Positions 2,342 to 15,369 of a DNA stretch of 21,592 nucleotides are shown piece by piece. The stretch is from a bacterium. GTDB taxonomy: Bacteria > Orphanbacterota > Orphanbacteria > Orphanbacterales > Orphanbacteraceae. Location: assembly GCA_025782575.1 (NCBI GenBank), contig JALGYY010000026.1, positions 1-21,592 of the forward strand. The letters are read 5' to 3'. The position numbers and the translations under genes are program-made. Below the pieces are notes generated by a model. The model did not search any database. It had not been told where the DNA came from and saw only the letters and a program-made list of their open reading frames with translations. The stretch's first letter is position 1. The number at the start of each line of letters is the position of its first letter.

Positions 2342-2970
2342 CCTCCGGCAAAGTCGGGGGCTTTATTTGTGAGCCGCTCAAAGCGGTCATGAACGTGCCC
2401 GCAAACGGGCATTTGAACCACCTGAATGTCGTGGGCTTTAGTCCAAGCGCAGTTGTCCTAACCGCACTTCCTCTGTTTCTTGCTGGCGGATGTATTGACG
2501 GATTACCGTTTCGTCCCGCCCTATATGTTGATACGGAATAGCCGCGCGCCCAGAAATTCTGACCAACAAAATTCCGCGATCGCCCGACAAATTCCGGCGC
2601 AATTATGAATCGCACTCTTCCCCTTGATATACTCGATCACCTGGGCTAAAGAGTATTTGGGCGGGATGGAAATCAGCATGTGCACATGATCCGACATCAG
2701 GTGTCCTTCTTCGATCTCACTTTCCCGCTGCTCGGCCAACTTCCGGAATACCGAGCCAAGGTGTTGTTTGATCTGGCGGAAAATCCGCTTCTTACGGTAT
2801 TTTGGAGTGAAGACAACATGATACTTACATTCCCATTATGAATGCTGTAAACCACGGTAGCTCGACATGGGGCTTCCATTCGCAATGCTTTAAGCGGCTC
2901 ACGTTAGGAAGTCCCCATAATCTTCCCGCAAATGTCAAACTCTGAGTGCCTCCCCGGCAGAGCCGGGGGG
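2342..2970. mobile_element. Decayed IS200/IS605-type insertion sequence with hairpin ends
   Basis: The element is defined by a broken Y1/HUH transposase gene flanked by imperfect palindromes. A 'CCTCCGGCAAAGTCGGGGG' stretch lies at 2342-2360 and a similar 'CCCCGGCAGAGCCGGGG' hairpin at 2952-2968. Inside these, a 10-bp inverted pair (GTGAGCCGCT at 2369-2378 and AGCGGCTCAC at 2893-2902) brackets the gene. IS200/IS605 elements are known to use subterminal hairpins in place of terminal inverted repeats, which fits. The length of about 630 bp matches a tnpA-only IS200 element. The exact cleavage sites cannot be placed by eye. Confidence 0.6.
2438..2842 (-). pseudogene. tnpA: IS200-family transposase TnpA, broken by frameshifts
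   Basis: Read on the minus strand, three frames join into one IS200 transposase. The start of the similarity, 'WECKYHVVFTPKYRKK' (from about 2835), leads to the HUH motif in 'MSDHVHMLISIPPKYS' and on to 'IKGKSAIH'. Near 2605 the reading moves to another frame giving 'FVGRSRNFVGQNFWARGYS'. Near 2520 it moves again to 'RDETVIRQYIRQQETEE', the tail that carries the catalytic tyrosine in this family, ending at the TAA in 2438-2440. A further shift or stop near 2836 cuts off the usual N-terminus. HUH transposases act on single-stranded DNA in a peel-and-paste manner. With at least three disruptions this copy cannot make an active enzyme. Its identity is clear from the order of the motifs. Confidence 0.85.
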
Positions 2971-2975
2971 TCTCC

Positions 2976-3896
2976 CATTTATGCTAGAACACCTTTCCGG
3001 GATCGATGTCCTCGATCCGATCGTTTGACCCCTCGGCCTCCTCTCACCCAACGTTCCTCGGCTGCCCCGGCCTCGCGAGCCGCCAGCCGACTCTCTTCCG
3101 CCTGCCGGCGGATGCTCGGGCATTCAACCAAAGAGCGGACGCCGACCCGAGGATGAGAGGCGCGATAAGGATCTCCACGGGACTCCTTTTCGTAGGGTGT
3201 AACGAGCTGACTCTTGCGTGTATCTTGCCTATATTCTGTAGGAATACAGGTCGAACGGCAAGAAGATATACATACCAACAACTTAGCTTCAAACGCTGGT
3301 CCCAACTATATGCGTCAAGACTAATATAAAGTTTCTGGGCCGGCCTCGGCATGGCCCGCCCTCCGTGCTCATCGGTTCAGGCCGAACTTCAGGTCTCTTT
3401 ACCCAAGATACGCGCGGCTCTAGTGTCTCACGTCCGCAGGAGATAGACGGTCTCGGCGCCTTAGTTAACGGAGCTGACTTGGTGTAGCAGTGTCGCCTCC
3501 CCATGGCTAGAAAGACCTCCTCATGCAACACTGCGGAGGACTAGGCGACCACGCTGGCCTTGACCCCTTCGGCATTCTCATGAAGGGGCAATGGACTACC
3601 GCCAGATCCCTCGATCCGTCCTTTAAGATATCGAGACTGTACCGTCAGAGGGTGAAGTTCTCCGTGGATAGAGCCTAATTGAAGAAGCCTAAAGATGTAA
3701 CTCTCGGTCGAAAGCATCCGGATGCTCAAGAACGAGGACAATCCTGCCGATACTGATAAAAGAAATTTCCAGTGGTGCCGCCGAAACCTGAGTCCACCAA
3801 GGAGCCCGGTCAAGGAGAGAAAGCGTCGATGCCTGCTGTGACTATCCACGGAGACAGTGAGACAGCTGATCCCTTCGAAGCCCAGAGGGCGCTGAA
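2976..3896. other. Intergenic stretch with no convincing gene
   Basis: About 920 bases separate the IS200 remnant from the haem kinase. Short open frames occur on both strands (for example 3541-3906 on the minus strand), but they overlap each other, have no recognisable domains and lack clear ribosome binding sites. A weak promoter-like pair, CTGACT then 17 bases then TATATT, lies around 3208-3236. A small CTGTA/TACAG stem with a GGAA loop follows at about 3236-3249. The stretch probably holds the promoter of the downstream operon, but I cannot place it firmly. Confidence 0.4.
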
Positions 3897-5963
3897 ATGA
3901 GAGCAATCTACCCCCGGCTCGGTGGTCGTGCGCGCGAAGCCCTTCGAATACTGAAGGACAGATCCGTTCTGGCGCTCATAGGGTGTTTCGTCACCGCCGT
4001 TGCGAGTGTTCTATGGCATCAGGTACACACGCATGACCAAGCTGTCCGATCCGCTGCCGTCCAGGAAGCCGCCAACCAGATACACGTTCTCAGGGAGTTT
4101 CGCACTCTCTACACTTCGGAAGTCGTCTCAAGGCTCACCGGCCAGGGGATTGAGGTAACGCACGACTATGCCGAGAAAGAGGGAGCCATTCCGCTTCCAG
4201 CAACTCTTAGCATGCTTCTCGCCACCCGGATCTCGGCCAGGAATCCAGAACGTGAAACAAGGCTCTACAGCCCATATCCGTTTCCCTGGCGAGGAGCCAC
4301 AGGAGGATTGCTCGACGGATTTGCGCATGAAGCCTGGGATCATCTGACGCTGAACCCGGATCACCCGTTCATCCGTTATGAAGAGTCCGTGAACGGCCTC
4401 ATCGTTCGATATGCCGCTGCGGATCGCATGCGTCCAAGCTGCGTCAGTTGCCACAACAATCACCCGGAATCACCGAAGCGCGACTGGAAAGTCGGGGACG
4501 TTCGTGGCGTGCTCGAAGTCAGTTTGCCAGTACCTACGGCTGCCGCGGGCAGTATCACCGCCCTCAAGCGCTCGTCTCTCCTGGTTTCCCTGCTGTGTGT
4601 CCTGGCCGCTGTCTGCCTTTGGATCGTGACGGCCAGACTACGTAGAGAAGCCACGCTTCTCGAACAGCGTGTCGAGGAGCGCACGGCGGAATTGAAGGAG
4701 GAATACCTTGAGCGCAAACGAGCCGAGGAGCATCGTAGGGAGGCAGAGGGCTTTGCGCAAGAGATCCTAGAGCACGTGGCAGACCCAATCATTGCGATCA
4801 ACGACAAGGGCGCGATCCTGAGTGCGAGCACGTCTGTTGAATCTGTCTTTCAATGGACGCCGCATGATCTTTTAGGACAGAATATCTCAATTCTTATGCC
4901 TGAGCCCCACCGCTCGAAGCACGACGATAATCTCCGCTCCCATAAGGCGACGGGGTGGGCTAGGGTGCTTGGGCAAGTCAGGAGGATGGATGGTCAACGC
5001 AAAGATGGGACAGTCTTCCCGATCGAGCTTGCCGCGTCACGCGTGACGACCGCTATCGACCCCCTATTTGTGGGAATCATCCGGGATCTTTCTGTCAGGA
5101 TGAAACTTGAGCAGGAGCTTGAGCAGGCGCGTCGCCTGGAGTCCATCGGGCAGCTCGCAGCTGGCATCGCCCACGAAATCAATACACCCACGCAGTACGT
5201 TGGCGATAACACGCGCTTCCTCGAAGAGAGCTTTCGTGAGATTACTCCGTTTTTGGTGAAGGCCAACGAGCTTGCTGCCGCCGTTTGCGTGGGCACGGGG
5301 TCCTCCGAGCTTGCCGACGAGTTGAAGGCCGCCTTCGAGAAGGCTGATGTTGAGTACATGGTCAAGGAAATCCCGCGCGCCATCGAACAGTCTTTGGAAG
5401 GAATCGACCGCGTGAGGAAGATCGTCCGATCGATGAAGGAGTTCTCCCATCCCGGTGTGGAGGGGATGACCAGCATCGATCTCAACCACGCAATCGAGAA
5501 CACGATCACAGTCGCTACCAACGAGTGGAAGTACGTGGCCGAGTTGGAGATGGATTTCGATCCCGAGTTGCCCCTCGTGAAGTGCCTGCCGGGCGAGATC
5601 AATCAGGTCGTTTTGAACATGATTGTTAACGCTACGCACGCCATCACCGACGTGGTAGGCGATGGCGATAACGGTAAGGGGACGATCAGGATCAGCACCC
5701 GTCGGGACGGCGAGTTCGTGGAGATACGTATCTCCGACACTGGGGCGGGAATTGCTGAGGAGGTTCGGAACAAGGTTTTTGATCCTTTCTTCACCACCAA
5801 GGGAGTTGGCGAGGGCACCGGTCAGGGACTCACGATCGCGCGCGCCATAGTTGTCAAGAAGCACGGCGGGGCGCTCAACTTCGAAACTGCGATCGGCAAG
5901 GGAACGACCTTTGTTGTCCGACTGCCTCTTGAAGGGCCGTGCGTCGAGGAGCCTGTGTCATGA
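3897..5963 (+). CDS. Membrane sensor histidine kinase with periplasmic haem-binding (Tll0287-like/DUF3365) domain
   Basis: This is a 688-residue inner-membrane kinase. A first membrane helix (about 23-40) and a second (about 226-247) bracket a periplasmic domain of about 185 residues with a c-type haem motif, C182-V-S-C185-H186, followed by 'VGDVRGVLEVSLPV'. This layout is typical of the Tll0287-like/DUF3365 sensor family. A coiled coil (about 248-285), a PAS domain (about 286-400), and a dimerisation domain with H426 in 'AAGIAHEINTPTQYVGDN' follow. The ATPase domain has its N-box at about 568-580, 'DTGAGIAEE' at 614-622 and 'GEGTGQGLTIA' at 638-648. Covalent haem suggests redox or gas sensing. 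The ATG at 3897 has AGAGGG about 8 bases upstream. The stop overlaps the start of the next gene (ATGA at 5960-5963), so kinase and regulator are translationally coupled. Family and topology are confident; the signal is inferred. Confidence 0.93.
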   Translation: MRAIYPRLGGRAREALRILKDRSVLALIGCFVTAVASVLWHQVHTHDQAVRSAAVQEAANQIHVLREFRTLYTSEVVSRLTGQGIEVTHDYAEKEGAIPLPATLSMLLATRISARNPERETRLYSPYPFPWRGATGGLLDGFAHEAWDHLTLNPDHPFIRYEESVNGLIVRYAAADRMRPSCVSCHNNHPESPKRDWKVGDVRGVLEVSLPVPTAAAGSITALKRSSLLVSLLCVLAAVCLWIVTARLRREATLLEQRVEERTAELKEEYLERKRAEEHRREAEGFAQEILEHVADPIIAINDKGAILSASTSVESVFQWTPHDLLGQNISILMPEPHRSKHDDNLRSHKATGWARVLGQVRRMDGQRKDGTVFPIELAASRVTTAIDPLFVGIIRDLSVRMKLEQELEQARRLESIGQLAAGIAHEINTPTQYVGDNTRFLEESFREITPFLVKANELAAAVCVGTGSSELADELKAAFEKADVEYMVKEIPRAIEQSLEGIDRVRKIVRSMKEFSHPGVEGMTSIDLNHAIENTITVATNEWKYVAELEMDFDPELPLVKCLPGEINQVVLNMIVNATHAITDVVGDGDNGKGTIRISTRRDGEFVEIRISDTGAGIAEEVRNKVFDPFFTTKGVGEGTGQGLTIARAIVVKKHGGALNFETAIGKGTTFVVRLPLEGPCVEEPVS

Positions 5964-6373
5964 AGCAAATACTATTAGTTGACGATGACGCGGACCTGCT
6001 GGAAGCCCTGACGCGGCAATTTCACCCCTATCGCCACGAATGGCGAGTGGCCACCGCAGTAAATGGCGTAGAGGCGCTCCGTTTGGCCCGTGAGCAATCT
6101 CTCGATCTACTCATCACCGACATCTTGATGCCGAGGATGGATGGCATTGAGGTGGTTTTAGCTTTCCGGCGCGACTATCCCAGGGTGAAGATTGTTGTGA
6201 TGTCCGGTGGGGGCCGGCATGTGGGCAAAGAGCCCCTCAAATACGCCCGCATGTTCGGTGCTCATGCCGCCATCGAGAAACCCTTCGATTTTCTTGTTAT
6301 GCGTGACACAATCCGATCCTTGCTCGAACCGGAACCCAACATTACCTCATCTCTCAAAGGAATCGACTCATGA
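5960..6373 (+). CDS. Single-domain response regulator (REC only)
   Basis: This 137-residue protein is one receiver domain: 'ILLVDDDADLL' at the start, phospho-acceptor D54 in 'LLITDILMPRMDG', and the conserved lysine in 'AAIEKPFDF'. No output domain follows, so it must act through protein contact, like CheY or Spo0F. The start at 5960 is preferred over an in-frame ATG at 5939 inside the kinase gene. GAGGAG lies 8 bases before 5960, and the protein then begins directly with the first receiver strand. Its ATG overlaps the kinase stop, and its own TGA overlaps the ATG of the next gene. It is the likely first phosphate acceptor of the adjacent haem kinase. Confidence 0.92.
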   Translation: MKQILLVDDDADLLEALTRQFHPYRHEWRVATAVNGVEALRLAREQSLDLLITDILMPRMDGIEVVLAFRRDYPRVKIVVMSGGGRHVGKEPLKYARMFGAHAAIEKPFDFLVMRDTIRSLLEPEPNITSSLKGIDS

Positions 6374-7572
6374 AGCGTATCCTTTTTGTTGACGATGAAA
6401 CTATGATACTCGATGGACTAAAACGGTCGCTGCATTCTCAGCGCCAAGCGTGGGACATGAAATTCGTCACCTCCGGGAATGACGCCCTCTCGGCGATGGC
6501 TGTGGAGCCGTTCGATGTCGTGGTAACCGATATGAAGATGCCCAATATGAACGGGGCGGAACTCCTCGGGCACATCAAGGACCGTCATCCCAGGACTGTG
6601 CGCATCGTACTTTCTGGTCACGCCGATATGGAAGCGGCCATGCGGAGCGTATCCGTGTCTCACCAGTTCCTTGCCAAGCCATGCGATGCGGGGGCGCTAA
6701 TAAGCGTCGTACACCGGGCATGCAATCTCGAATCGCTCTTGAGAGAGCCGAGTCTCCAAGAAGCCCTGGGCTCCATTGTCGAGCTTCCTGTACTCCCTCG
6801 AGTGTACAAGGCACTGACGGTGGCGTTGGCTAAGGAGGACGTGGATATTCGGGAAGTCGGAGGTATCGTTGAGCAGGATGCCGCTATTGCCGCCAAGATC
6901 CTGCAGCTTGTCAACTCGGCCTTTTTCGGCCTCGGTCGAGAGATCGTCGACTTACGTCAAGCAACTGCGTACCTCGGCGCTACAACCATTCGAGACCTTG
7001 TTCTCTCCTTCGAGATGTTCCGAGAGTTCGAGGGTGCCGTGAAATATTCGGGCTTTTCCGTTGAGCGCGAGCAGAGCCACTCCCTTCTGACCGCACGTGT
7101 CGCTCGAAGGCTCCTTGATGACAAATTGGCAGCGGATCAGGCCTTTCTCGCCGCCATGCTTCACGACGTGGGAAAACTCGTTTTAGCGACTCGTCTTGGG
7201 GAACCATTCCAAAAGATCCTTCGGGCGGGAGCCGGAATCGAGCGCCCCTTCCACAAGGTGGAGGAGGAGATTCTTGGCGTGAGCCACGCAGAGATTGGTG
7301 CCTACCTTCTTGGGCTTTGGGGGATGTCCTATCCGGTAGTCGAGGCCGTGGCTTATCACCACCACCCCGGACGCGTTGAAGGGCAATCAGAGTTCGGCGT
7401 CCTCGGAGCTACCCATGTCTCGGATTTTCTTGTCCGGGAGCACGATGAGAGCTTGTCAGATGCTGTTGAGCTCGACGAGCAGTTCTTACAGGCGCTTGGA
7501 GTTGCAGAGAAGCTTACCGAGTGGCGCGCGATTGTTGCAGAGGAGGTCGGTGCCGAGCATGAAATCGCATGA
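6370..7572 (+). CDS. Response regulator with HDOD output domain
   Basis: This 400-residue cytoplasmic protein has an N-terminal receiver domain with D54 in 'VVVTDMKMPNMNG' and 'FLAKPCD' at about 100-106. An HDOD domain follows from about 127 to 335. Recognisable HDOD stretches are 'LPVLPRVYKAL', 'IVEQDAAIAAKILQLVNSAFFG' (about 166-187, partly quoted) and 'YLGATTIRDLVLS'. It keeps the H265-D266 pair in 'AAMLHDVGKLVLA' and 'AVAYHHHPG' near 327-334, residues usually linked to metal binding in HD superfamily enzymes and variable in HDOD proteins. HDOD proteins are known in signalling networks for motility, development and c-di-GMP control, often without proven catalysis. Its start overlaps the stop of the preceding regulator (ATGA at 6370-6373), so it belongs to the same operon. 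Domain calls are secure; the output is not known. Confidence 0.92.
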   Translation: MKRILFVDDETMILDGLKRSLHSQRQAWDMKFVTSGNDALSAMAVEPFDVVVTDMKMPNMNGAELLGHIKDRHPRTVRIVLSGHADMEAAMRSVSVSHQFLAKPCDAGALISVVHRACNLESLLREPSLQEALGSIVELPVLPRVYKALTVALAKEDVDIREVGGIVEQDAAIAAKILQLVNSAFFGLGREIVDLRQATAYLGATTIRDLVLSFEMFREFEGAVKYSGFSVEREQSHSLLTARVARRLLDDKLAADQAFLAAMLHDVGKLVLATRLGEPFQKILRAGAGIERPFHKVEEEILGVSHAEIGAYLLGLWGMSYPVVEAVAYHHHPGRVEGQSEFGVLGATHVSDFLVREHDESLSDAVELDEQFLQALGVAEKLTEWRAIVAEEVGAEHEIA

Positions 7573-7599
7573 CCTACAAATCCACCTAGGGAGATAAAA

Positions 7600-8766
7600 A
7601 TGACCACGAACCTCGACCGCATTCTTCTCGTCGATGATGAGCAGTCTGTCCTCGATGGCCTGATTCGGCAGTATCGTAAGTACTACAACCTGGTGGCAGC
7701 GTGCGGTCCCGACGAGGGCCTTCGGGCCATTGTGGAGGACGGCCCCTTCGCGATCGTCGTCACTGACTTTAGGATGCCGGGCATGAACGGCACACAGTTT
7801 CTTGCTAAGGTAAGGGAGCATAGTCCCGACATGATCCCGATCATGCTCACCGGGCAAGCAGACCTACAAACAGCGATCGATGCTGTCAACCTCGGCCACG
7901 TATTCCGCTTCTTAACCAAACCGTGTGAGCCAGAGATCCTGCGTGGGTGCCTCGATGCAGCCCTTGAGCAGTATCGCCTGCAAAATGTTGAGCGGGACCT
8001 CTTGGAACAAACAGTGCGAGGGAGCGTTGAAGTACTGGCCGACGTCCTGGCTCTAGCCAATCCAGCTGCTTTTGGAAGGGCGATCAGAATCCGTGGTCTT
8101 GTCCGGCACATCGTGAATCACCTGAAGCTGGCAGATGGGTGGCAGTACGAAACGGCGGCGCTTCTCTCTCAGATTGGCTACGTCGCTATACCCGACGACT
8201 TGATCGAGCGTGTGCTGACCGGCGAGGAGTTGCCGGCCGATCAGATGGCAATGATTGATCGCCACCCAGAGGTTGCCCGGGATCTCCTCATGAGGATTCC
8301 GCGCCTGCAAGTTGTTGCCGAGATGGTGTACCATCAAGATTCCATGGCCAAGCCATCTGACAACCGTTTGGTTGTAAAGGGCGGACGGATGCTTGCCGCT
8401 GCATTGGACTTTGAAGAGTACCTCTCGATTGGTGCTGAACCCGATCAGGCACTGGAAGCCCTCCGGGCAGCGGGAAACAAGTACGACAAGGACGTCCTGG
8501 AGGCCCTCGCGACGGCGAAGATGCCAAGCGCCAAAGACTCGGCTCAGCTAGTACCGGTCCACGAATTCCGTGTAGGGATGGTGATACAGGAGGATGTGCG
8601 CAACACCGGCGGCAGCCTGATTGTTAGCCATGGGCACGAAATCACCGAAGGGTCACTACAACGTCTGCAGAACTACGCGAAGCTGGGCCACCTTACTAAG
8701 GTCAACTTTAGAGTCTACGTCCCACAGACAGCGCTTACAAGGTCAAAGGCTGGGGCGGTGGTGTGA
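7600..8766 (+). CDS. Response regulator with degenerate HD-GYP-like domain (RpfG type)
   Basis: This 388-residue protein begins with a receiver domain (D56 in 'AIVVTDFRMPGMNG', 'FLTKPCE' at 104-110). It continues into a helical domain laid out like the HD-GYP c-di-GMP phosphodiesterases. The usual 'LHDIGKIGIPD' is replaced by 'LLSQIGYVAIPDD' (188-200), so the HD pair is S-Q. The early conserved His is also missing ('GRAIRIRGLVRHI'). 'RHPEVARDLLMRIPRL' (221-236) and 'YHQDS' (244-248) are retained. A C-terminal module of about 70 residues ('FRVGMVIQEDV', 'SHGHEITEGSLQRL') resembles the tail found on some HD-domain regulators. Without its metal ligands it is probably a binding protein, not an enzyme. 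AGGGAG lies 6 bases before the ATG. It is the last gene of the operon, 27 bases after the REC-HDOD gene. Confidence 0.88.
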   Translation: MTTNLDRILLVDDEQSVLDGLIRQYRKYYNLVAACGPDEGLRAIVEDGPFAIVVTDFRMPGMNGTQFLAKVREHSPDMIPIMLTGQADLQTAIDAVNLGHVFRFLTKPCEPEILRGCLDAALEQYRLQNVERDLLEQTVRGSVEVLADVLALANPAAFGRAIRIRGLVRHIVNHLKLADGWQYETAALLSQIGYVAIPDDLIERVLTGEELPADQMAMIDRHPEVARDLLMRIPRLQVVAEMVYHQDSMAKPSDNRLVVKGGRMLAAALDFEEYLSIGAEPDQALEALRAAGNKYDKDVLEALATAKMPSAKDSAQLVPVHEFRVGMVIQEDVRNTGGSLIVSHGHEITEGSLQRLQNYAKLGHLTKVNFRVYVPQTALTRSKAGAVV

Positions 8767-9431: not shown

Positions 9432-9578
9432 ATGGGACGAAGAAAGTTCACTCAAGGGTTCAAGCTTGAGGCGGTGACCCGCCCCTATTGGATCGATGCT
9501 TGTGCGGCGGGGCAGGACCAAGTCTCCGACAACAGGGCCGTAGTGGGGGTTGCCTTGCCCCCCTTCGACAGTCACTAG
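9432..9578 (+). pseudogene. Chimeric remnant: IS3 OrfA start fused to a piece of a secreted-protein paralogue
   Basis: A 48-codon frame from ATG 9432 to TAG 9576 joins two unrelated pieces. The first 16 codons, 'MGRRKFTQGFKLEAVT', are the start of an IS3-family OrfA. The preceding bases (about 9365-9431, 'GGTCTGTCGGGTTCTCCCC' onward) look like the IS3 left end with its usual leader. From about 9478 the frame reads 'PYWIDACAAGQDQVSDNRAV', which closely matches 'PHWVDNCVAGQDAVSNSGAV' of the secreted protein at 10515-11282, and then stops. This is therefore an IS3 deletion that removed the 5' end of an older paralogue and left only about 30 codons of it. AGGAAG sits in front of the ATG, so the chimera might still be translated. 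Confidence 0.7.
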
Positions 9579-9624: not shown

Positions 9625-10188
9625 GTGACTGACGGAAAAATGATGAGTATCAAAGTGATTATGGTTTTGTTGTTTCTGTTCGTGGTAGCAGCAGCCGACG
9701 CACAGCAATTCGACGGGTTTCAAGATGGGACATCAGACGGGACCAACACTACGATTCAGGTAAAGATTAAGAATGGAACGCCGTTTGAGAAGCTTACAAT
9801 CCAATTCTCCATCCAAGGCGGTGGTGCTCAGGTTAGGGTAATCTTTCTCGACGAGAACGGTAATTTCAATGGTCCTGTGTTGTTTCTTGTAGGCGCACAG
9901 CCGGGCGACTTTGACACGCTGGAATTATGGGATGACGGAGCGCCGCCTGTGCGGAAAGACATACAACAAGCATGTTGGGGTAATGGCATAGTCCTTGCCG
10001 GACGATCCGGCGAATGTGTTGGTGCTTGCTGTTTTGGCCAGGACTTCTGTCAGATTCTTACAGAATCTGAATGCGATTTGACCGGGGGGTTATTCCAGGG
10101 CGAGGACACTATCTGTGACCCGGACCCGTGTTCGGGAACGTCAACAGATAACAATAGCTGGGGCGGGGTCAAGAAGCTATTCCGGTAA
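9625..10188 (+). CDS. Small secreted protein with cysteine-rich module and shared C-terminal SWGGxKxxFR signature
   Basis: This 187-residue exported protein has no family I can name. The GTG at 9625 is chosen because AGGAG (9613-9617) lies 7 bases upstream; later ATGs at 9640 and 9643 are worse placed. Residues 8-26 form a signal peptide ending 'ADA', probably cut before 'QQFDGF'. The middle part is beta-rich and polar. Residues 131-169 form a cysteine module ('CVGACCFGQDFC' then 'ICDPDPC', seven cysteines in all) that probably forms disulphides outside the cytoplasm. The last ten residues, 'SWGGVKKLFR', are nearly the same as the end of the next gene's protein although the bodies differ, which suggests a common sorting or anchoring tag. 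No enzyme motif is visible. Confidence 0.8.
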   Translation: MTDGKMMSIKVIMVLLFLFVVAAADAQQFDGFQDGTSDGTNTTIQVKIKNGTPFEKLTIQFSIQGGGAQVRVIFLDENGNFNGPVLFLVGAQPGDFDTLELWDDGAPPVRKDIQQACWGNGIVLAGRSGECVGACCFGQDFCQILTESECDLTGGLFQGEDTICDPDPCSGTSTDNNSWGGVKKLFR

Positions 10189-10514
10189 ACGCCCCTCGTC
10201 CCCCTGGCAATAGCATGGGGACATCTGACTACTCGGGTGGATGCTTCGCAATGGTCCTTCTGCCCGTAGGAACAGGTAAGCGGTCTTTTATCGGCAGAAT
10301 TCTGGTGTGGAGCGGTTCAGCGAACGTGAGACAGAATCAAGCGAAGAGTTAAAAGACAGATCACAAGTGCTCTACCAGGGAAAGGAGACGTCCGCGAACT
10401 CTAAACCCGGCTCGGAGAAACTTCAATCAGAATAGTAGGAGAGTGATGCGTGGATACTGGAAACTGCGACGGTCACGAAGTGAGTTTGTGGATTGAGCAT
10501 AGGAGGCAGGAAAC
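10189..10514. other. Leader region of the second secreted-protein gene, with a possible 16-residue upstream ORF
   Basis: A GTCCCC/GGGGAC stem with a 13-base loop (10198-10222) follows the upstream gene, but it lacks a T-run. A tiny frame, ATG 10446 to TGA 10496, encodes 'MRGYWKLRRSRSEFVD' and has AGGAG just before it. It ends 18 bases before the next gene's ATG and could be a translated leader or chance. GTAAGCGGTC at 10276-10285 is identical to the first ten bases of the IS66 ends further on, with nothing else to support an insertion sequence there. Confidence 0.3.
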
Positions 10515-11282
10515 ATGAAAAACAGAATTGTGGGATCAGTAGGTATCGTAGCTCTGTTTGCCGGGTTCCTCCTGTTTGGGCACCCGCCAGTCAGAGCAGG
10601 AGACGCGCCCTGCGAGGACTGCGGTCCCGGTCCGCATTGGGTCGACAACTGCGTCGCGGGGCAGGATGCGGTCTCCAATTCGGGTGCGGTCGTGGGTATC
10701 GACGCCGATCTTGACTCTAATTGCACAATAGATTTCAATCTAATCATGGTCCCGTGCGGTGCGCCGGATGACAAGCTGCTTATCAACCGGAGCGGTCCGC
10801 TCGATCAGTCGGCGTTTTTTCCCGGGATCGGAACAAACGACGGTCACCTGGATGTGATCGATACAGAGATCATCTCAATGTGTCTGGTAGGCGGAGGCGT
10901 TACTCTTAAAGCCGGACTAGGCTCCGGGAGCGGTGTGATCTTTCCCTCAAATGGCGTCATAGAGGAAAACTCCGTCGACCCTAACAAGGCCCTTAGCTTC
11001 TTCGACGTGTTCTTCGAGGTGTCGGGACCAGTGCCGGGCGGTGGTCCACTTTACAACCATGAGCCGCTCCGGATCCAGGCCGACCCGGATATAACTTGTG
11101 TTCCTCCGAAGGCGAACTACTTCCATCCGACTGGCATATGCATCGATCTTTGGGACGATCCAAACCCGGGCCAAGGAACGGTTTGGGCCCGTTTGGTGGA
11201 AGCGGAGCACATGGTGAATCCTGACACCACCAATAGCACGGAGAGCGAGTCGTGGGGTGGGATCAAGAACATGTTTCGGTGA
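10515..11282 (+). CDS. Secreted protein of unknown function with shared C-terminal SWGGxKxxFR signature
   Basis: This is a 255-residue exported protein. A perfect AGGAGG (10501-10506) lies 8 bases before the ATG. Residues 1-28 form a signal peptide with a long hydrophobic core ('IVALFAGFLLFG') and a likely cut after 'VRA'. The mature part starts with 'CEDCGPGPHWVDNCVAGQD' and holds several acidic, glycine-rich segments, with cysteines suited to disulphides. It ends in 'SESWGGIKNMFR', matching the end of the protein encoded at 9625-10188. The segment 'PHWVDNCVAGQD' recurs in the truncated copy at 9478-9575, so this gene was once at least duplicated here. I do not recognise a catalytic motif or named family. 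A surface or matrix role is inferred only from export and the shared tail. Confidence 0.8.
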   Translation: MKNRIVGSVGIVALFAGFLLFGHPPVRAGDAPCEDCGPGPHWVDNCVAGQDAVSNSGAVVGIDADLDSNCTIDFNLIMVPCGAPDDKLLINRSGPLDQSAFFPGIGTNDGHLDVIDTEIISMCLVGGGVTLKAGLGSGSGVIFPSNGVIEENSVDPNKALSFFDVFFEVSGPVPGGGPLYNHEPLRIQADPDITCVPPKANYFHPTGICIDLWDDPNPGQGTVWARLVEAEHMVNPDTTNSTESESWGGIKNMFR

Positions 11283-11696: not shown

Positions 11697-13253
11697 TCAC
11701 TTGGCCCGAATCTCGCTTGCTCTAAGCCGATCGAGAAGAGACCGCATCGGATTCTCGGCAAATCGTTCTTTCCAAAGCCTCGGCGTCAGTTGTTCGACAT
11801 CCTTTGCCGGATGCGTTTCGATCCGTTGCAGCACATCGACGAGATACGCGTAAGGATCGACTCCATGCAACCGGCAGGTGAACAGCAGGCTCTGAGCAAT
11901 GCCGACATAGAGCGCGCCCACCTCCGTCGAACAGAATAGCCAGTTCTTCCGGCCCAAGGCGATCGGCCGGATGGTGCGTTCGATGTGGTTGGTATCGATA
12001 GGCACGTCGGGATATTCCAGAAAAACGCGGAGTGACTTCTCTCGGCTGAGCGCGTAGCGTGACGCTTTCGTAAACGGATTCTTCGGGAGGAGAATTTCCT
12101 CATCCAGCGTCGATCGAAGATGCTCGAAGAATGAATCGACCACACTCTTCATGTGCTCGCCGCGCCAGGCCAGTATTTTTTCGGGAGTGAGCGTTTTCGC
12201 CTTCAGCTTCGTGTCCAGCTGATAGAGTTCTCCGATCAGATCCAAAGCTCTTCCGGCCTGCCTCGGCTCCGCCGACTCCGCCTTTTCGAAATGCCGCCGC
12301 GTATGCGACCAGCACTGCGCGTGCACGATGCCGTTCACCGACTTCACATAACGATCGTACACCTCGTACCCGTCGGTCAGCAGCTTTCCCTCGTAACCGC
12401 GGAGCAGTTCTCGAATGAGTGTGCCCCCCCGGGAGTTCGAGAAGGGAAAGACAACTTCATCCCGGTCCCCATAGATCGGCCAGAAATAGCCGGTCTTCAT
12501 TTTCCCGGGCGGCGGTCTCTTCTTCCGTCCCGCTTTGATCGGAGTCTCATCCATCGCAAGGACATCACTCGAGAGGATCGAGCGCACTTGCGCCTGATAC
12601 ACAGGCTCAAGCAGCGCCGCGGTCCGATGAAACAGGTTGGTTAGAGTCGATCGCGCCAGGTGAACTCCACAGGCGGAAAGCCGTTGATGCTGGCGATAGA
12701 GCGGCAGGTGATAGGTCAGCTTGTCGATCAGAAGTCCGGCAAGAAAACTCACATCCGCGCAGCTCTTCTCCAGAACGGCCGGCGGTGCCGGAGCACGGTG
12801 GATCGTCTCATCTGACTTCATCTTGTATACAGGGCGGACAAAGCGAAGGACGACGTACGATCCAGGTCGCTGAGCCAGGCGAGAGGTGATCTTCTCGCCG
12901 ATCTGTTCGTAATTCTCGCGATCCGCCTCGTCCCAGCCCTCTGGTTGCAGGACGATCTCCTGAACCGGAACGGAAGGATCGAAACGGAGCTTTTCCTTTA
13001 CTGCTGTTCCGACGTTCCGGCGACGACGCCGGTGAGCGGGAACTTCGATTACAGCGTTGTCCAGCTCTTCGGCCCTTGACAGCTCCCCAAGAGTCAGCTG
13101 CCGGCCATCGGAATCACAGATCCGCCGCTCCGACTTCCGGCCGAAAAGCTGGCGCTTCAGCCACTCTAACTGCTGGGAAAGTTCTTCGTGGGAGGCGAGA
13201 AGTTCGGCGACTTCCTCGGTACTCATCGATGATGCTTGCGCCTGAAACTTCAT
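11697..13253 (-). CDS. tnpC: IS66-family transposase TnpC (DDE)
   Basis: This 518-residue catalytic transposase is a usual length for IS66 TnpC. A leucine-rich N-terminal coiled coil ('ELSQQLEWLKRQLFGRKSE', 25-43) precedes a central region and an RNase H-like DDE domain. The catalytic triad is likely D235 in 'LAMDETPIK', D294 in 'LLTDGYEVYDRY' and E425 in 'NHIERTIRP'. 'HAQCWSHTRRHFEKA' (311-325) and 'LGRKNWLFC' (433-441) are strongly conserved family blocks. It is the last of the three element genes and starts 12 bases after tnpB stops. The reading frame is intact, so it should be functional. Confidence 0.97.
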   Translation of the reverse strand: MKFQAQASSMSTEEVAELLASHEELSQQLEWLKRQLFGRKSERRICDSDGRQLTLGELSRAEELDNAVIEVPAHRRRRRNVGTAVKEKLRFDPSVPVQEIVLQPEGWDEADRENYEQIGEKITSRLAQRPGSYVVLRFVRPVYKMKSDETIHRAPAPPAVLEKSCADVSFLAGLLIDKLTYHLPLYRQHQRLSACGVHLARSTLTNLFHRTAALLEPVYQAQVRSILSSDVLAMDETPIKAGRKKRPPPGKMKTGYFWPIYGDRDEVVFPFSNSRGGTLIRELLRGYEGKLLTDGYEVYDRYVKSVNGIVHAQCWSHTRRHFEKAESAEPRQAGRALDLIGELYQLDTKLKAKTLTPEKILAWRGEHMKSVVDSFFEHLRSTLDEEILLPKNPFTKASRYALSREKSLRVFLEYPDVPIDTNHIERTIRPIALGRKNWLFCSTEVGALYVGIAQSLLFTCRLHGVDPYAYLVDVLQRIETHPAKDVEQLTPRLWKERFAENPMRSLLDRLRASEIRAK

Positions 13254-13265
13254 GTCGGAATTGTA

Positions 13266-13589
13266 CTACGGGCGCCCGTTCGCTCCAAGAACAATCCCAT
13301 CTAAAATCAAACGAAATGCTTGTTCGCTCAGTTCGAACGTGTCGGCTTCTCCAGGGAGCACAAATCGGCCACGCTCGAGCCGCTTCGCGAACAGACAGAA
13401 CCCGGTGCGATCCCAGAACACCAGCTTCACGTAGTTCCGGCGGCGGTTGATAAACACGTAGAGGCTGCCGGAGAGGGGATCTTCTCGAAGCTCGTTACGG
13501 ACGATCGACACCAGTCCATCAAACTGCTTCCGCATGTCGACCGGGTGACGGTAGGCCAGGATCCTTCGGACTTCTTGTTGGAAAAGCAC
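13266..13589 (-). CDS. tnpB: IS66 accessory protein TnpB (Orf2)
   Basis: This 107-residue protein has the classic IS66 Orf2 sequence, with 'RHPVDMRKQFDGL', 'GSLYVFINRRRNYVKLVFWD' and 'GFCLFAKRLERGRF'. The family is needed for IS66 transposition, but its biochemical role is unknown. It lies 3 bases after tnpA and 12 bases before tnpC, so the three are almost certainly cotranscribed. Length and motifs are complete. Confidence 0.96.
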   Translation of the reverse strand: MLFQQEVRRILAYRHPVDMRKQFDGLVSIVRNELREDPLSGSLYVFINRRRNYVKLVFWDRTGFCLFAKRLERGRFVLPGEADTFELSEQAFRLILDGIVLGANGRP

Positions 13590-13592
13590 GGA

Positions 13593-13862
13593 TCAGCCTT
13601 GCAGTCGCAGCGAAAGCCCGTCGGGAAGGGTGATCTCCAGGGTCCACGAGGAAGAAGGTAATAACTCCGACGTGACCGGAACAAAGGCGCTCTCTTGCGT
13701 CGCTGAGTTCAACTTAATCCGCCAACGCCGTAAGCTCTCGAGGCTGATCCCTTCCTTCTTGCAGAATTCCCGGGTGGCCTGACCGTTCTTCTCGAATCGC
13801 GAGATCAACTCCTGCCAGTCCGACGCATTACGGCGAATCCTCTTGCTCGACGTGACCTTCAT
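13593..13862 (-). CDS. tnpA: IS66 accessory protein TnpA (helix-turn-helix)
   Basis: An 89-residue small DNA-binding protein of the IS66 OrfA type. A helix-turn-helix runs through 'DWQELISRFEKNGQATREFC' and 'KKEGISLESLRRWRIKL'. The ATG at 13862 is preferred over an in-frame ATG at 13889 because GGAGG lies 5 bases upstream of it (complement of 13868-13872), and the protein then begins 'MKVTSSKR'. It is the first gene of the element, about 110 bases inside the right end, where its promoter should lie. It probably binds the element's ends or assists TnpC. Confidence 0.9.
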   Translation of the reverse strand: MKVTSSKRIRRNASDWQELISRFEKNGQATREFCKKEGISLESLRRWRIKLNSATQESAFVPVTSELLPSSSWTLEITLPDGLSLRLQG

Positions 13863-13961
13863 TCTTGCCTCCGCATGAAATAGACACAAACCGATCGACG
13901 CCTCCCTGGCGTCTCGATCTGTTGTAGCTCATGCGGGGATCAAATGAAATCCGCCGATTAT

Positions 13962-14445: not shown

Positions 14446-15369
14446 CTACCGGAGGAGCACCATCTTTCTGGCGATGGCGAGGCGCTCACCCCCTAACCTT
14501 GTGAAGTAGACTCCGCTAGGCGCATTCCTCCCATTGTTGTCCTTCCCATCCCACACAACGGTGTGGTCACCGGCTTCAAGCATTCCGGAATGGAGCGTCC
14601 GAACGAGTTTGCCTGAAGCATCATAGACCTGAATCTCAACAGGGGCCTTTTCCCGAAGCCGGAACTTGATGGAAGTGGTCGGATTGAACGGGTTCGGCAC
14701 GTTCTTCAGATTGAGCTCCAACCCAGGAACTTGGTTGTCACCGGTCATGACGCCGGTCGCGATCGTGTCATTCATGCCAATCGTGACGGGAATGTGAAGC
14801 TCCGTCGTCAGATTCCAGCCGTTCACGGAATCCCCAAGAGCAACCCACAATTCGTGTTGTTCGCCATCAGGACAATAGGGCGGCGCGATGATATTGAAGT
14901 GGACGGTGCCACCGGCAAGTGAATCAACCAGCTCGGAGCTATCGATCATCCGGCTATCCCACGCATTCCAGTAGGCGTCCGGGCCACTTGGTAAGGCGTT
15001 CTCCAGGCTGAGCGCGAGGTCCTTCCGATACTTACCCCAAATCGTATCAGTCGGAGCGCTCATCGGAAGAAGATAGGCCCCTTCGTCTTCTGAAACATTG
15101 AGAGGATCATATTCTCCTCCAGCCAGCCAGCCATTGGGAGCCGCTACCCCCAACCAGAGACAATTGTCTGGCTCACCTTGCGTATCAATGATCGCCCACC
15201 AGTAGTCGATAACGACGATCACGCAACGCTCATAGAAGAAGGCCTCGTACCAGAAGACCCAAACACTGTGGACTTGAACAACGATCCAGACACAACCGAG
15301 CCCGAGCAATGGAAGGAGCGCCAGGGCCAACAGCGCCCGATTCTCCCTCAAGATATTCAGAAGACTCAC
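14446..15369 (-). CDS. Secreted protein with C-terminal FlgD-like/T9SS-like Ig domain
   Basis: This 307-residue protein has an N-terminal hydrophobic run at 12-33 ('LLALALLPLLGLGC') that acts as signal peptide or anchor. A second hydrophobic, aromatic stretch lies at about 35-62. The middle portion (about 63-215) has no family I recognise. Residues 223-307 form a FlgD-like Ig domain: 'NVPNPFNPTTSIKFRL', 'VEIQVYDASGKLVRTL', 'GDHTVVWDGKDNNGR', 'APSGVYFTRL'. In FCB bacteria this domain sits at the end of exported proteins, and related domains act as type IX secretion signals. The GTG start at 15369 has GGAGG 6 bases upstream (complement of 15376-15380). The gene stands alone on the minus strand, with a strong hairpin after its stop. 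The C-terminal domain is confident; the function is unknown. Confidence 0.87.
   Translation of the reverse strand: MSLLNILRENRALLALALLPLLGLGCVWIVVQVHSVWVFWYEAFFYERCVIVVIDYWWAIIDTQGEPDNCLWLGVAAPNGWLAGGEYDPLNVSEDEGAYLLPMSAPTDTIWGKYRKDLALSLENALPSGPDAYWNAWDSRMIDSSELVDSLAGGTVHFNIIAPPYCPDGEQHELWVALGDSVNGWNLTTELHIPVTIGMNDTIATGVMTGDNQVPGLELNLKNVPNPFNPTTSIKFRLREKAPVEIQVYDASGKLVRTLHSGMLEAGDHTVVWDGKDNNGRNAPSGVYFTRLGGERLAIARKMVLLR

Follow-up and report, generated by a model that had tools for sequence, protein, structure and literature searches.

SprA is the outer-membrane translocon of the type IX secretion system (T9SS), and the sorting signals described for this system are C-terminal domains at least about 100 residues long. 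The type A signal, of about 100 amino acids, uses PorV as its shuttle, and the type B signal, of 150-235 amino acids, uses PorP/SprF (PMC12618676). The type C signal (ChiA-type) is a C-terminal region of about 100 residues with motifs of its own (PMC10202324). Type A C-terminal domains (CTDs) tolerate extension at their C-terminus, and the last 22 residues of the HBP35 CTD, comprising motifs D and E, were reported to be sufficient for T9SS export, with a lysine being required (PMC11285876). Here we describe a much shorter conserved C-terminus on exported proteins, and compare it with these signals and with the PEP-CTERM type of anchor.

Two exported proteins with a common C-terminal tail

The window, by which we mean the whole stretch of 21,592 nucleotides analysed, encodes two exported proteins on the forward strand. 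Protein A (9625..10188, 187 aa) begins with the signal peptide MMSIKVIMVLLFLFVVAAADAQ and ends in STDNNSWGGVKKLFR, with its stop codon at 10186-10188; protein B (10515..11282, 255 aa) also has a signal peptide and ends in STESESWGGIKNMFR, with its stop codon at 11280-11282. The tails, SWGGVKKLFR in A (10156..10185, +) and SWGGIKNMFR in B (11250..11279, +), directly abut the stop codons, and both conform to the codon pattern that we searched genome-wide. Each tail is preceded by a linker, TSTDNN in A (Ser/Thr/Asp/Asn; 10138..10155, +) and TTNSTESE in B (Thr/Asn/Ser/Glu; 11226..11249, +). In a logo of 201 tails, Thr, Ser and Glu are enriched in the preceding linker, Glu being most frequent at position -13. 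Pairwise BLASTP aligned A and B over their final 21 residues only, leaving the bodies unmatched, and profile searches of Pfam and NCBIfam returned no match for either body. Because the bodies can be neither aligned nor assigned to a family, body homology does not account for the common tail, in agreement with the preliminary description of this DNA, which had reported two unlike secreted proteins with a common C-terminal tail.

Other features of the window were also noted. Just upstream of protein A, positions 9480-9575 (+) encode a peptide, YWIDACAAGQDQVSDNRAVVGVALPPFDSH, that is similar to HWVDNCVAGQDAVSNSGAVVGIDADLDSN of protein B, a resemblance that makes this stretch a likely relic of a decayed paralogue. 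Directly after protein B lie three ORFs (11697-13889, -) resembling an IS66-type insertion (TnpC/TnpB/TnpA-like). A dense signalling cluster (101-2113, -, and 3897-8766, +) contains two kinases, one of them a hybrid histidine kinase, and three response regulators; by eye, two of the regulators appear to have HDOD/HD-type outputs.

Abundance and conservation of the tail

The tail has the consensus [ST]-W-G-x-[IV]-K-x-[LM]-[FY]-R-COOH, a length of about 10-17 residues and no transmembrane helix. We searched for it at the codon level as W-G-x-[hydrophobic]-K-x-[hydrophobic]-[FY]-R-stop, with the reversed pattern as the control. The genome of the window (G000, 4.88 Mb) contains 39 matches, and 49 when one mismatch is allowed, as opposed to none for the reversed pattern in either search. 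In the additional matches Gly is replaced by Ser in three, the hydrophobic position at -3 is altered in two, the stop codon in two, and the last Arg in three (Lys, Lys and Gln); the Trp and the Lys are altered in none, so that W, K and R are conserved more than the pattern itself imposes. Every synonymous codon for Gly (four) and Arg (six), and each of the three stop codons, occurs in the tails, and this free synonymous variation indicates selection on the peptide, not a DNA repeat. The tail is found in all seven genomes of the phylum (G000-G006), with 10 to 39 copies in each. A genome-wide search of this kind had been proposed in the preliminary description, which understated the extent of the tail.

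Similar ends on several proteins could also arise by chance, by recent paralogy or from a mobile DNA repeat, and some of the body clusters are indeed tandem paralogues, as in the five genes at G000:C21:223729-226221. This explanation is refuted by the controls, and we give it practically no weight: the reversed pattern gave no match in G000, in the phylum genomes or in a set of 50 genomes, the bodies are highly divided among clusters (see below), and synonymous codon variation is complete. The five tandem genes (L017-L021), spaced at about 615 bp, represent the recent expansion of a single body family.

Proteins that carry the tail

By a simple and liberal heuristic rule, a signal peptide was called in 174 of the 190 tail ORFs with a closed frame, as opposed to about 27% of the remaining ORFs in the same loci, which served as the background. 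The 16 tail ORFs with no called signal peptide are short fragments, a few ORFs that the rule overlooked, or chance matches. The bodies of 201 tail proteins fall into 77 clusters, with 54 singletons. These patterns bear out the earlier proposal of a C-terminal sorting signal on varied proteins with signal peptides; the tail is neither restricted to two paralogous families nor attached to bodies that are homologous throughout, the two outcomes that had been named as contradicting it.

The folds recognised among 70 representatives include beta-helix, NHL, lamin-tail (LTD), cohesin, laminin-G (LamG), FG-GAP and MAM-like, together with the NCBIfam 'choice-of-anchor' domains W, J and X. As the naming of these last families conveys, the sorting tag that follows a choice-of-anchor domain differs by lineage. 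None of the 70 representatives matches a T9SS type A (TIGR04183/PF18962/FlgD_ig) or type B (TIGR04131/CHU_C) domain, none of the 228 tail proteins matches our local profile of the type-A-like CTD, and the tail itself matches no Pfam or NCBIfam model. In the literature on C-terminal signals in these phyla we found no description of the tail, and the tail peptide strings that we tried were not found in print.

A few tail carriers (L023, L024, L163 and L167) are probably lipoproteins. Two of these, L023 and L024 (G000:C24:26575 and 27777), are adjacent and each contains a duplicated body, in which a degenerate tail (SWTAVKMLFR-W, TWTAVKSVFR-W) persists at the internal junction and a canonical tail stands at the C-terminal end.

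Distribution across genomes

Scanning 84,980 species genomes yielded at least 116 stretches with the tail, and the 80 stretches listed belong mostly to Eisenbacteria, Krumholzibacteria, Latescibacteria, Zixibacteria and their relatives. We counted tails in 50 of these genomes, with no match for the reversed control in any of them, and most Eisenbacteria- and Krumholzibacteria-type genomes carry from several to 62 (from a few to 62 when the Latescibacteria type is included). The Bacteroidota in the GTDB sense among the 50 (Hymenobacter, Ignavibacteria, Kapabacteria) carry exactly one each. Two genomes of the phylum, labelled Candidatus Eisenbacteria, occur under two handles with the same coordinates (OFTM309 as G002 and G035, Dive96_bin2.117 as G004 and G011). 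Matches in Nocardia, Pantoea, Bacillus, Butyrivibrio and Pedobacter were rejected as chance, as they lie in very short frames or have TGG in place of the stop codon; the first three of these genomes are among the 50 counted.

In a sample of 296 Bacteroidota genomes the tail is present in 73, almost always as a single copy, and the reversed control gave two matches. The single-copy loci examined form one orthologous family (L121, L099, L173-L202), with the exception of L198, a chance match. Members of this family, which is found in about one quarter of the Bacteroidota genomes sampled, have about 130 aa and consist of a signal peptide, one Ig/FN3-like domain and then [KR]-[TS]-W-G-S-I-K-[AS]-[LM]-F-R or close variants. 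With a protein of this family as the query, a PDB sequence search found nothing, and a fold search returned generic FN3/Ig matches, which are uninformative about the tail. AlphaFold2 predicted the Ig-like domain with high confidence, followed by a low-confidence linker and then, at modest confidence, the tail as a separate helix of 7 residues. A short helix standing apart from the Ig-like domain would also suit an amphipathic docking element that holds the protein non-covalently to a membrane or a partner, for example on the periplasmic side of the outer membrane, and that is not a secretion signal. We consider this improbable, because the one-mismatch search finds W, K and the C-terminal R too invariant for generic membrane binding.

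Co-occurrence with SprA

The preliminary description had predicted that a transport gene would accompany the tail, and SprA is present in 53 of the 57 genomes examined (in G000 at C21:304609-308952), as opposed to none of 14 controls. The 57 labels include four duplicates with identical coordinates, leaving 50 distinct credible carriers, of which 49 have SprA. The four genomes lacking it are the three with chance matches (Nocardia, Pantoea and Bacillus) and one assembly, G046. Within the Bacteroidota, SprA is found in 73/73 tail carriers and the tail in 0/67 genomes that lack SprA [hypergeometric P = 2.9e-10, a value that ignores phylogeny and overstates the evidence because the Bacteroidota lineages are not independent]. 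PorV-family matches number 13 in G000 and 8-27 per genome in most carriers, reflecting an expanded family. Similar to T9SS cargo, tail proteins combine a Sec signal peptide with a conserved C-terminal signal in genomes that have SprA and the PorV family. The co-occurrence with SprA may, however, merely mirror common FCB ancestry.

Beside the tail genes we found no conserved neighbour and no dedicated reader gene apart from promiscuous repeat families, and the neighbours of the Bacteroidota family are housekeeping genes that differ from group to group. Exosortase (PF09721) is absent from all seven phylum genomes and from most other carriers. The earlier suggestion that a dedicated recognition protein may exist is refined accordingly: with no conserved neighbour and no exosortase in the phylum genomes, the likely reader is the existing T9SS and not a new dedicated gene. 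An anchor of the exosortase, rhombosortase or PEP-CTERM-like kind would follow the same logic, in which C-terminal tags are placed on choice-of-anchor domains. It is largely refuted, and we consider it very improbable, since exosortase is absent from the phylum genomes and most other carriers and the tail has neither a transmembrane helix nor the arrangement of a hydrophobic C-terminal helix with a basic stretch behind it.

A different explanation is that a separate envelope receptor, such as a surface or peptidoglycan anchor, reads the tail as a sorting or retention tag independently of the T9SS, with the link to SprA arising from shared ancestry. The lack of a tail-specific neighbour or component agrees with this, as do the carriers that resemble lipoproteins, a tail sequence unrelated to Por_Secre_tail and CHU_C, and the 11 tails in G046, but the absence of the tail from SprA-less Bacteroidota argues against it, and so does the exchange of the tail for a type-A-like T9SS domain in at least six families, with the two never found together (see below). 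We regard a separate receptor as unlikely, while giving it more weight than the other alternatives. The G046 assembly (QNAI01 MAG, labelled Verrucomicrobia; loci L110, L269-L279) has its tails on contigs C129 to C304, no SprA and a weak PorV match. Some of those contigs bear type-A-like CTD proteins (L110, L273, L276, L279), for which reason we suspect that the assembly is mixed; a mixed, incomplete or mislabelled assembly, or a binning error, is likely, though unproven.

Exchange of the tail with type-A-like domains

The window itself contains a protein for comparison (14446..15369, -), whose C-terminal domain, at residues ~225-307 (~14449-14697), is of the FlgD_ig / T9SS type-A-like kind and has the terminal sequence RKMVLLR [PF13860, 56.1 bits; TIGR04183, 27.6 bits, above the cut-off of 23]. 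This protein is one of at least 110 to 149 FlgD_ig matches per genome in G000-G006. When a beta-helix body from G000 was searched in these seven genomes, its homologues were found to end either in the tail (L239, L244, L246, L247, L251, L259, L267, including the variants SWTEVKEMFR, SWSEFKEMFR and TWGAVKRLWQ) or in a FlgD_ig domain (L241, L245, L254, L258, L262, L264, L268 and others). For example, L244 and L241 align over 447 columns at 38% identity; the alignment breaks off roughly 20 residues short of the C-terminus in the tail protein and roughly 20 residues ahead of the CTD in its partner.

Across all loci, 35 of the 228 tail proteins, in five body clusters, match bodies that carry a type-A-like domain. 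L110 provides a sixth case, in which two adjacent convergent genes (2126-2698, +, and 2772-5021, -) have bodies that are 41% identical, one ending in the short tail and the other in a FlgD_ig domain. At least six body families thus end alternatively in the tail or in a FlgD_ig/type A T9SS domain, and none of the 228 tail proteins carries both. Exchange on homologous bodies shows that the two endings are equivalently placed, and is not proof of a common receptor. The two endings also have comparable termini: of the 102 type-A-like domains in the loci, 71 have R and 22 have K as the last residue, two hydrophobic residues come before it, and K/R stands at -6; the tail ends in L/M-F/Y-R, with K at -5.

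Comparison with known C-terminal signals

Similar to type A CTDs, the tail occupies the extreme C-terminus of Sec-exported proteins in the same genomes, takes their place on homologous bodies, and has two hydrophobic residues and a basic residue at its terminus with a further conserved basic residue upstream. It differs in being about 10-17 residues long and predicted to be helical, in its W-G-x-I-K sequence, in the aromatic residue at -2 and in matching no model, whereas the type A CTD is an Ig-like beta-sandwich of about 80-100 residues. At about 15 residues the tail is too short for the seven-strand Ig-like fold of the type A signal, and its predicted structure, modelled at modest confidence for the Bacteroidota family, does not have it. 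Since type A CTDs tolerate C-terminal extension, the tail would stand further apart from them if it strictly required its terminal Arg to be free. Type B (TIGR04131) and type C (ChiA-type) CTDs resemble the tail in being alternative, non-type-A C-terminal T9SS signals, but they span 100-235 residues and have other motifs, type C having been compared by its description only.

The last 22 residues of HBP35, like the tail, are a short C-terminal peptide with a lysine, although they normally form the final strands of an Ig domain and are unrelated in sequence to SWGxIKxLFR. By this precedent, the T9SS could be addressed by a short C-terminal peptide that contains a critical Lys and has a basic terminus. 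PEP-CTERM, GlyGly-CTERM and MYXO-CTERM are, like the tail, short C-terminal tags on unrelated exported proteins, choice-of-anchor domains included, but unlike the tail they contain a transmembrane helix, and each depends on a protease dedicated to it. The preliminary view that the tail, having no hydrophobic helix, does not fit known sorting signals has to be qualified by its exchange with T9SS tails on homologous bodies and by the similar terminal chemistry.

Proposed mechanism and implications

We infer, with near certainty, that the tail serves as a C-terminal sorting tag. The T9SS is its likely, though unproven, reader, and our best reading is that the tail represents a compact T9SS sorting signal that has no Ig fold and belongs to none of types A, B and C. 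We assign a rough probability of 0.62 to the tail being a compact sorting signal of Sec-exported proteins that is read at the outer membrane by the T9SS or its shuttle. Counting against a T9SS reader are the probable lipoproteins among the tail carriers, which are atypical of T9SS cargo, the tails of G046 in the absence of SprA, and the lack of an Ig fold, unlike known type A CTDs. More broadly, we think it probable that the tail defines either a further minimal class of T9SS signal or a C-terminal sorting pathway entirely of its own, based on an amphipathic helix of about 10 residues with invariant Trp, Lys and C-terminal Arg and not on an Ig domain, and used by dozens of proteins per genome in several FCB phyla and, in some of the Bacteroidota, by a single conserved family present in one copy.

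Under the T9SS reading, the N-terminal signal peptide would direct the protein to the periplasm and then be removed, and the body would fold there. The flexible Ser/Thr/Glu linker would display a short amphipathic helix with a free carboxylate, in which W, I/V and L/F would lie on one face and K and the C-terminal R elsewhere. A PorV/PorP-type shuttle or SprA would then bind the end of the tail, and the protein would be exported to the surface or the medium.

If the T9SS reads the tail, this label is about ten times shorter than is usual for that machine, and an exchangeable signal of ten residues would reveal the minimal need of the machinery. Which component reads the C-terminus can be tested in cultured Hymenobacter through its single-copy cargo. 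Such a tail would also be useful as a very short tag with which to secrete proteins or display them on the surface. The T9SS type of cargo logic would extend far beyond the Bacteroidota, and the exported proteome of several uncultured phyla would become predictable.
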